DNA of 64,000 bases from Methanosphaerula palustris E1-9c. GTDB lineage: Archaea; Halobacteriota; Methanomicrobia; Methanomicrobiales; Methanospirillaceae. The translations under genes were made by a program, and so were the position numbers. The stretch covers positions 248,001-312,000 of the forward strand of contig NC_011832.1 in the NCBI RefSeq assembly GCF_000021965.1, in the 5' to 3' direction. This document shows positions 54,164-56,612 of this stretch, piece after piece. Within the stretch, counting starts at the first letter, position 1; every line of letters starts with the position of its first letter. The notes under the pieces are model-generated. The model had not been told where the DNA came from and searched no databases. It saw only the letters and a list, made by a program, of their open reading frames with translations.

Positions 54164-55611
54164 TGCCTTCTTCTCCGGATGTACAGGGCTGCACCTCCGA
54201 TGACCACTAAGATCGCAACAATCGGAAGGGCGAGTCCCTCGAGGGTTCCGACGATCCCGCCACGCTGCCCGGGGGCGCCCATGGCCCCGGATGGTGCGCC
54301 ACCTGCTGATTCCCTGCCACTACCGGCGGTCATGTTGGAGGTGGATGATTTGATATCCACGTTTATCGTCTGGGTGAGGGAGTTTCCGTTGGCGTCCTTA
54401 TAGGTGATCACGAGGGGGACGGAGGCGCTGTTCGTTCTGTCGGTGAAGGTCACTTCAAAGCTGGAGAAGTCATTCGCTGCGAGCGATCCGATCACTGCCT
54501 GTTTGTAGGGGTCGACAGGGGTTACACTCCCTCCAGTCGTCACCACGACGCCGTTGGCATCTTTGAGCCCTGCATTGTTGACATTCCCAGTGATATGAGT
54601 AGTTCCGGATGACTGGGTGACCACAGTGTCGGAGATCAGGAGATCTGCCTGGGTCTTGTCCTCAGAGAAGGTGATTGGAATGGTCAGGGATGTGGTGTGG
54701 GCATTCAGCCCGTTCAGGTATTTGACCTGGAATGTGATGTTTCCTTCACGTGTAGGTGTCACACTGAAGGTCTTGGTGACCTCGGTGTTTGAAGAGATGG
54801 CTCCGATGAAGGTCGATCCCGGGGTGATGGTGGTACCGTCTCCTGATGGAATGATCTGCACTCCTGATACACTGTTCTGCCGGGGGTTCCCGATCGCAAG
54901 GACCAGACTGTCCTTGAATCCCTGCACATAGGCGTCAGGCTGGGAGGCCACCGAGACTGCGAGATCAGTGCTGGCCACCTTCACGGCGATTGGATACCGA
55001 AGGGAGCCGGAATCCAGGTCAAGGGAGAACTCGGGGTACTGGGTTCCGTCCTTTGACCCTGCCTGGATAGGGAAGGTGAAGACCATTGTTGAACCCGCGT
55101 TGATGGTCCCGCCTGAAGAATACTGGGTGGTGTCCATGTTCGTCACTGAAGAGCCGGCGAGGGTGGCATGGTTGTACGTGACAGCGGTGTTCCCACCGTT
55201 GCTGACTGTAACAGTCAGGGTTCCGGTGTCTCCTGGCATCAACACCTCAGGATCGAGGCTGGTCTCTTTCACTGAGAGCCCTGCACTTGTCGACGATCCC
55301 GTGGCCGCTGTGGTGGTTGCAGTTGTCACCTGAGATACGCCGGTGTAGGATCCTGAGGAATCTAAACTGCTGTTCGTCCCGGTTGATACCGATGTGTTGC
55401 TCACAGTAGCTGCTGAGGCTGCCATGATCAGGACACAGAAGGCTAGGGGGATCAGCAGCACAGTGGCGAACCGCCGTACTGTCTCGCGTCTTCCTGATCG
55501 CCTGGTTGCTCCGTTTCTCTGTACAGAGACCGGACTCTGTACTGCTTTTTTGCCTGATGCACCCTGACCGGTTGCAGGGGTGCCGGTATTCTGGTATACT
55601 GTTGATTTCAC
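54160..55611 (-). CDS. Exported CARDB/COG1361-type protein, partner of the ABC exporter
   Basis: A 483-residue protein: a basic N-tail (residues 1-47), a signal-anchor helix (VLLIPLAFCVLIMAASAA), a Ser/Thr-rich linker, then tandem beta-sandwich repeats (DTGTLTVTVSNGGN, KDSLVLAIGNPRQNSV) and a C-terminal helix (VGTLEGLALPIVAILVVIGG) with YIRRRRQ tail. A Gly/Met-rich linker (SGAMGAPGQRGG) precedes the last helix. Layout parallels the protein at 6311-7633, which is paired with an RND exporter. It begins the ABC operon, facing a divergent TrmB regulator across two palindromes. An adaptor role is inferred. Confidence 0.83.
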   Translation of the reverse strand: MKSTVYQNTGTPATGQGASGKKAVQSPVSVQRNGATRRSGRRETVRRFATVLLIPLAFCVLIMAASAATVSNTSVSTGTNSSLDSSGSYTGVSQVTTATTTAATGSSTSAGLSVKETSLDPEVLMPGDTGTLTVTVSNGGNTAVTYNHATLAGSSVTNMDTTQYSSGGTINAGSTMVFTFPIQAGSKDGTQYPEFSLDLDSGSLRYPIAVKVASTDLAVSVASQPDAYVQGFKDSLVLAIGNPRQNSVSGVQIIPSGDGTTITPGSTFIGAISSNTEVTKTFSVTPTREGNITFQVKYLNGLNAHTTSLTIPITFSEDKTQADLLISDTVVTQSSGTTHITGNVNNAGLKDANGVVVTTGGSVTPVDPYKQAVIGSLAANDFSSFEVTFTDRTNSASVPLVITYKDANGNSLTQTINVDIKSSTSNMTAGSGRESAGGAPSGAMGAPGQRGGIVGTLEGLALPIVAILVVIGGAALYIRRRRQ

Positions 55612-55646: not shown

Positions 55647-55666
55647 GTAGTAATTTAGTTTACTAC
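55647..55666. promoter_or_regulatory. TrmB-type operator candidate, site 1
   Basis: GTAGTAATTTAGTTTACTAC: arms GTAGTAAT and TTTACTAC are inverted repeats in seven of eight positions around a 4-bp centre. It lies 36 bp upstream of the exported-protein start (55611, minus). Nearly the same sequence is found at 55708-55727. Confidence 0.7.
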
Positions 55667-55707
55667 CATTCTGTTATGCATCATCAGAGATAAATCTGTC
55701 TGTGGCG

Positions 55708-55727
55708 GTAGTAAATTATTTTACTAC
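55708..55727. promoter_or_regulatory. TrmB-type operator candidate, site 2
   Basis: GTAGTAAATTATTTTACTAC: perfect 8-bp arms (GTAGTAAA/TTTACTAC) around TTAT. It lies 21 bp upstream of the regulator ATG at 55749. Centre-to-centre distance to site 1 is 61 bp, close to six helical turns, which would allow cooperative binding or looping across the divergent promoters. Confidence 0.75.
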
Positions 55728-55748: not shown

Positions 55749-56612
55749 ATGATGACGATCACCCCGGCGCTGGTGAAGGCACTGAAGGTGCTTGGGCTCT
55801 CCGAGTACCAGGCAAAGGTCTATGCGGCGCTGGTCCTCCTCGACCAGGCGCAGGCGAAAGAGGTGATCGAACTGCTCGGGATCTCCAAGCCGAGTGTGTA
55901 CGAAAGTCTCGACTCCCTGGATGACCTCGGGCTGGCCGTCCGGATCAGCGCCAAGCCGGCGGTCTTTCAGGCGATATCCCCTGAGATAGCCGTTAAGATC
56001 CTGATGGATACCCACACCCGGGCCGGAACTTCGGCCCTGACCGAACTGCAGGCCCTTCAGCAACAGACCTTCTCGGGGAGACGCTCCGGCCGACTCTGGG
56101 CGATGTACGGAAAGGAGAATCTGGATTACAAAATCGACGAGATGCTCAGAGAGGCGAAGGAGAGTGTATTTGCGGTGATCTCGGACCGGTATCTCGATCT
56201 CTTCAAACAGATCGCAGGTCGTGGTCTCCAGGTCTGGCTGGTGGTGATCTCTGAAGATCCAGAGATCGAGGAGGAACTCCACACACTCTTTTGCGGGGAC
56301 CACGAGGAGGTGCTGGTCACCTCCCCCATGGTGTTGATGATACCGCTGACGACGGATCCTGACCTGGCAGAGATGACTGACGAGTTCAGGTTCTCCAACC
56401 AGCTCGACCTGATCGTCGACGATGCCGAGGCTCTCTCGGTGCCGCCGATCGAGACCGACCTGCTGACCGGTCTTGACTCCCAGAACAGGACTGTTGTGCT
56501 GCTCGCTAAGAACAGGAACATGATGATATGGCAGATGTTGCAGCAGATGGTGAAGGAGGAGCTATCGACGGGGGATGATCGGGATGAGTCCATGAGCCCG
56601 CTCTCTGACTGA
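55749..56612 (+). CDS. TrmB-family transcriptional regulator
   Basis: A 287-residue regulator: an N-terminal winged helix (LGLSEYQAKVYAALVLLDQA, then KEVIELLGISKPSVYESLDS) and a C-terminal TrmB sensing domain with the phospholipase-D-like AKESVFAVISDRYLDLF region. The ATG at 55749 is preferred over an in-frame TTG at 55728 that abuts site 2. Divergent from the ABC/CARDB operon with two matching palindromes between them, so it very probably controls that operon and itself. TrmB proteins usually sense sugars, but in methanogens many sense other signals; the ligand is unknown. Confidence 0.9.
   Translation: MMTITPALVKALKVLGLSEYQAKVYAALVLLDQAQAKEVIELLGISKPSVYESLDSLDDLGLAVRISAKPAVFQAISPEIAVKILMDTHTRAGTSALTELQALQQQTFSGRRSGRLWAMYGKENLDYKIDEMLREAKESVFAVISDRYLDLFKQIAGRGLQVWLVVISEDPEIEEELHTLFCGDHEEVLVTSPMVLMIPLTTDPDLAEMTDEFRFSNQLDLIVDDAEALSVPPIETDLLTGLDSQNRTVVLLAKNRNMMIWQMLQQMVKEELSTGDDRDESMSPLSD

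Follow-up and report, generated by a model that had tools for sequence, protein, structure and literature searches.

Paired inverted repeats as candidate operators of a TrmB-family regulator at a divergent exporter locus in Methanosphaerula palustris

Genes and paired repeats at the divergent locus

The stretch of Methanosphaerula palustris DNA analyzed here, 64,000 nucleotides in full and referred to below as the window, contains a TrmB-family regulator gene (trmB) that diverges from a three-gene exporter operon (Table 1). The first gene of the operon encodes a secreted COG1361-like protein, and its GTG start is preceded by a GAGGAG ribosome site. The COG1361-like protein of the window gave no Pfam match; its counterparts elsewhere, encoded by a homologous gene at the same place in relatives, carry CARDB or NPCBM-associated domains, as do proteins usually annotated as COG1361. 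For the ABC ATPase the nearest NCBIfam models are DarD, MacB and LolD, all under their cut-offs. Much like Gram-negative MacB, the system combines MacB_PCD and FtsX permease domains with a MacB/LolD-like ATPase. Unlike MacB, the ATPase and permease are two separate proteins, which score 209.7 and 87.5 bits against a cut-off of 966 for the MacB equivalog PRK10535, and the operon carries the secreted COG1361-like protein instead of MacA or TolC genes; neither a MacA adaptor nor a TolC-type channel is found among the annotated ORFs adjoining it. On the trmB side, the longer mechanical reading frame starts at TTG 55728, directly at the end of the second repeat, and the ATG at 55749 was chosen as the start because homologues align from that methionine.

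Table 1. Features of the trmB-exporter locus and of the related repeat at a TrmB paralogue (window positions unless stated otherwise)
Feature	Position	Strand	Basis
MacB/FtsX-type permease, 430 aa	52188-53480	-	PF12704 E 3.9e-24, PF02687 E 3.4e-20, both above cut-off
LolD/MacB-type ABC ATPase, 228 aa	53477-54163	-	PF00005
Secreted, C-terminally membrane-anchored COG1361-like protein, 483 aa	54160-55611	-	ORF; first gene of divergent operon
Exporter-side putative operator O1, GTAGTAATTTAGTTTACTAC	55647-55666	.	Inverted repeat, 8/10 pairs
Weak candidate TATA element of exporter promoter, GCATAAC	55673-55679	-	Position only; low confidence
Candidate TATA element of trmB promoter, ATAAAT	55690-55695	+	Counterpart of conserved TAAAAA(G/A)GT block
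trmB-side putative operator O2, GTAGTAAATTATTTTACTAC	55708-55727	.	Inverted repeat, 9/10 pairs
TrmB-family regulator gene, 287 aa	55749-56612	+	PF01978 E 1.6e-18
Repeat at TrmB paralogue, GTTGTTATTATTATAACAAC	6801-6820 of L098 (G000:C1:1229000-1240000)		

Two 20-bp inverted repeats, designated O1 and O2, lie within the 137 bp that separate GTG 55611, where the COG1361-like gene starts, from the likely start of trmB. The outer seven bases on each side (GTAGTAA and TTACTAC) are identical in the two, giving a common core of GTAGTAA-N6-TTACTAC. An earlier reading made from the letters alone (the sequence-only reading) had placed both repeats correctly in the divergent promoter region, but was wrong in the details of symmetry and spacing: it took the second repeat to be perfect, where one of its ten pairs fails and two fail in the first, and it set the two six helical turns apart, where the centre-to-centre distance of 61 bp corresponds to 5.8 turns at 10.5 bp per turn. 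The motif GTAGTAAN6TTACTAC, searched at up to two mismatches, had zero matches in 100 dinucleotide shuffles of the window, and neither two such repeats nor a pair with one arm in common appeared in any of 20,000 shuffles of the 137-bp gap. Since shuffles of the window and of the gap never reproduced the pair, the paired repeats between trmB and the exporter operon are not a chance occurrence. An RNA element was considered as the identity of the repeats and set aside, with no Rfam match; a bacterial-type promoter was looked for and none was found. A further inverted repeat, GTACAGAGACCGGACTCTGTAC, with 8-bp arms, lies at 55521-55542 of the window, in the 5′-terminal part of the COG1361-like gene.

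In a pattern search of the genome, a 2.92-Mb single contig (2,922,917 bp), the exact motif occurs only at O1 and O2, and the next-best matches are one site with one mismatch and one with two. Because there is no other exact site in the genome, the circuit appears local to the trmB-exporter locus. A wider regulon in the Methanosphaerula palustris genome was likewise rejected, the one- and two-mismatch sites being all that there is beyond O1 and O2. The one-mismatch site (G000:C1:2694007-2694026) has arms of only 6 bp and is found some 32 bp upstream of an operon encoding both a DrrA-like ABC-2 transporter and a MarR regulator; it may be a MarR operator or a weak further target.

Conservation of the sites with the regulator

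Searching 199 genomes of the order returned 24 regulator matches at E <1e-39, located in 23 genomes of one family, with the next match only at 7.7e-19. In Methanoregula, Methanolinea and other Methanoregulaceae, the motif stands upstream of orthologues with 34-43% identity, in most cases as a pair. We aligned 22 distinct loci, the Methanosphaerula palustris locus included, and found O1 conserved at the same position on the exporter side (consensus GTAGTAAAAATTTTTACTAC), while the positional counterpart of O2 has the trmB-side consensus GTAGTAAAATTTTTAACAAC. Conservation at orthologous loci, which the sequence-only reading had named as a test of its own proposal, is therefore borne out by paired sites in the 22 aligned loci. 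Its emphasis on the second repeat as the symmetrical one does not carry over to relatives, most of which are reversed, with a symmetrical exporter-side site and a degenerate trmB-side site, whereas in Methanosphaerula palustris both are symmetrical. A less symmetrical trmB-side site could make autoregulation weaker than repression of the exporter.

The site also follows the regulator across the 75 genomes of the family. A symmetrical site is found in 15 of 23 genomes with an orthologue and in 1 of 52 without (Fisher p=3e-9, a value that overstates independence, the 75 genomes being related), and each of the remaining eight orthologue genomes has a site that departs from the motif at one to three positions. 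The sole genome with a site and no orthologue (G059) has a site with a G+C-rich core, probably a chance match. At one locus (L049) GTTGT replaces GTAGT in both sites, a paired change to be expected of two sites read by one protein. The layout differs in one genome (G157), where the exact site lies at -164 and a second, weak one at -39. In another (G121), the operator and the COG1361-like gene are separated by a DDE transposase gene (L075:8259-9416).

Elsewhere in the Methanosphaerula palustris genome, a TrmB paralogue (G000:C1:1235886) diverges from a COG1361-like gene of its own, with an inverted repeat between the two (Table 1), and similar repeats precede several relatives of this paralogue in the order. 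The combination of a TrmB gene, a divergent COG1361-like gene and a repeat thus seems to recur in Methanomicrobiales. This bears on whether a different DNA-binding protein might read the motif, the adjoining trmB being incidental, as the one-mismatch site upstream of the ABC-2 operon with its MarR gene could suggest. That site, however, has short arms, and its operon encodes a MarR regulator itself; site and orthologue co-occur strongly, also where the divergent genes encode MMPL or CotH proteins; and a related but separate repeat is found at the paralogue, in a comparable position. We consider a different reader extremely unlikely.

Promoter geometry and mode of control

In the 22 aligned loci, a TATA-like TAAAAA(G/A)GT block lies at -19 to -11 from the trmB-side operator, and its counterpart in the window is weaker than this consensus. 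Because the usual distance from TATA to start is about 25 bp, the trmB start site is predicted to fall inside O2, and an operator over the start site points to repression. On the exporter side, the TATA region shows low column conservation in the same loci, which leaves the exporter start site uncertain; on this strand, most loci have a GAGG ribosome site at about +26 and the start codon at about +37 from the operator. For TrmBL1 and Tgr, binding downstream of TATA inhibits polymerase recruitment (PMC10817205, PMC4158304). Speaking against autorepression, a haloarchaeal TrmB has been reported not to be autoregulated in vivo (PMC10817205).

It is very probable, in our judgement, that O1 and O2 are operators of the adjacent TrmB-family protein, one for each divergent promoter, through which it represses its own gene and the exporter. 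The sites, their conservation, the gene order, the trmB-side TATA spacing and the domain fold were computed; from these we infer that this protein binds the sites, that binding represses and that an effector releases the regulator. In the proposed mechanism, a regulator dimer would bind each 20-bp site, and each site would cover the transcription start region downstream of TATA, such that recruitment of RNA polymerase would be blocked. The regulator would in this way repress both its own gene and the operon for the secreted COG1361-like protein and the exporter. Its release would come from a signal that acts at the PLD-like C-terminal domain. The pair would probably represent specific and conserved operators for a local, probably autoregulated TrmB-family repressor.

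TrmB-family proteins can activate or repress depending on site position, and TrmBL1, Tgr and VNG1451C do both according to where the site lies relative to TATA (PMC4158304). One possible alternative is therefore that the regulator binds O1 and O2 but activates the exporter, or activates one side and represses the other. The exporter promoter has a poorly conserved TATA, as activated promoters can have, and the trmB-side site lies upstream of it. Each gene's own site, however, lies downstream of the TATA region and ahead of the start codon, which is the repressing position, and in most loci the sites end about 15-25 bp before the start codon. On this geometry, activation is an unlikely mode of control.

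The sequence-only reading had additionally suggested looping or cooperative binding, in which a regulator tetramer would bind both sites cooperatively on one helix face and loop the promoter DNA. Two near-identical sites 61 bp apart, with a narrow spacing of 66-71 bp in relatives, would suit such an arrangement. The phase, however, is not conserved, being 5.8 turns here and 6.3-6.8 in relatives (most commonly 6.6); across the 22 loci the spacing is 69 bp in nine, 67 in five, 68 in three and 70 in two, with 61 (the window), 66 and 71 occurring once each. In the genome G184, moreover, a whole sensor kinase gene separates the two promoters, each with its own site. This order (trmB, operator, sensor kinase gene, operator, secreted protein, ATPase, permease) is obtained by joining two contigs (L063 and L064) across an exact 117-bp overlap. 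In several loci of one clade, only one site can still be recognized, and bending about 60 bp into a loop is unfavorable on steric grounds. Same-face looping is very unlikely on these grounds, and the O1-O2 distance probably reflects back-to-back promoters instead.

The regulator, its known relatives and its varying partner genes

The TrmB winged-helix domain PF01978 was detected at 66.7 bits against a cut-off of 25.6, and in 29 of 29 homologues as well, which confirms the family originally assigned to the regulator. The effector domain PF11495 gave a partial match (profile positions 2-64 of 233) of 17.5 bits, under its cut-off of 22.2; a sugar ligand should not be assumed from a match that is only partial and sub-threshold. 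The AlphaFold2 model has a mean pLDDT of 84 and a pTM of 0.57, so that the domains are credible while their relative orientation is not. Foldseek places TrmBL2 and TrmB at the top of the fold matches, followed by PLD-type nucleases (PLD/NucT folds). The C-terminal effector domain is, as modelled, PLD-like, and the sugar-binding half of PF11495 is not recognizable in it. The recognition helix, SKPSVY, is nearly invariant. In the tree the Methanosphaerula palustris protein sits on a long branch, which makes its exact position unsure.

Much like TrmB of Pyrococcus furiosus and Thermococcus litoralis, the regulator pairs a PF01978 winged helix with a palindromic site at a neighboring ABC operon. 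At the trehalose-maltose ABC operon, TrmB uses a palindromic operator at BRE/TATA and represses by preventing polymerase recruitment (PMC4158304). Unlike in those species, each of two divergent promoters has one site, and the genes concerned encode an exporter and a secreted protein, where TrmB serves a sugar importer. The motif found here also matches neither of the published operators, TACT-N3-AGTA for that TrmB and TATCAC-N5-GTGATA (TGM) for TrmBL1 and Tgr. Against the NCBIfam equivalogues for sugar-sensing TrmB and TrmBL1, the protein scored 46.9 bits versus 650 and 36.8 versus 600, the former being its best match, to TrmBL1/Tgr, far under the cut-off. Position-dependent action at promoters, as proposed here, would be shared with TrmBL1 and Tgr, which control glycolysis and gluconeogenesis genes from many sites with a different operator, whereas exact sites here are confined to one locus. 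The top full-length fold match is TrmBL2 (5bpd, 5box; Foldseek E 1.4e-13), a protein of similar size (about 262 aa), with a whole-chain TM-score of only about 0.4, the domain orientation differing or being uncertain. TrmBL2 is a chromatin protein according to the titles of its structure entries, whereas the protein here has a specific palindromic putative operator. In the open-access literature searched, we found neither this regulator described nor any operator of a Methanomicrobiales TrmB-family protein. With a conserved 20-bp motif at some twenty loci, the regulator can be put to a direct test, which opens a way to the signal to which an uncharacterized archaeal exporter responds and perhaps to what that exporter carries.

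The genes facing the regulator vary between clades. Methanoregula loci with enough flanking sequence have a divergent operon for a secreted protein, an ATPase and a MacB-like permease. In the Methanolinea/g5 clade and in G187, the gene after that for the COG1361-like secreted protein encodes an MMPL/RND transporter (PF03176), and this partner occurs with the same regulator and operator at L079, L080, L082 and L084-L086. The MacB-like exporter of the sequence-only reading accordingly holds for this locus, where a MacB/FtsX-type operon is divergent from trmB, but the exporter type is not fixed, as in one clade an MMPL/RND transporter is found opposite the same regulator and operator. In the tree, that clade falls within the group with ABC exporters, at moderate support (94/91 with its sister), which suggests that the exporter was replaced in place. 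That an RND-type exporter takes the place of an ABC exporter while the regulator stays the same suggests a common signal for the two.

A broader hypothesis, which we regard as possible but doubtful, is that the signal sensed by this TrmB subfamily is a condition of the cell surface or membrane instead of a sugar, and that the subfamily acts through one conserved operator on exchangeable cassettes. The cassettes would be MacB-type ABC, MMPL/RND or CotH-VTC-DUF4956, mostly with a COG1361-like secreted protein. In a distant genus (g12; L073 and L078), the divergent genes encode a CotH kinase, VTC and DUF4956 proteins, and the nearby operator-like sites are degenerate.
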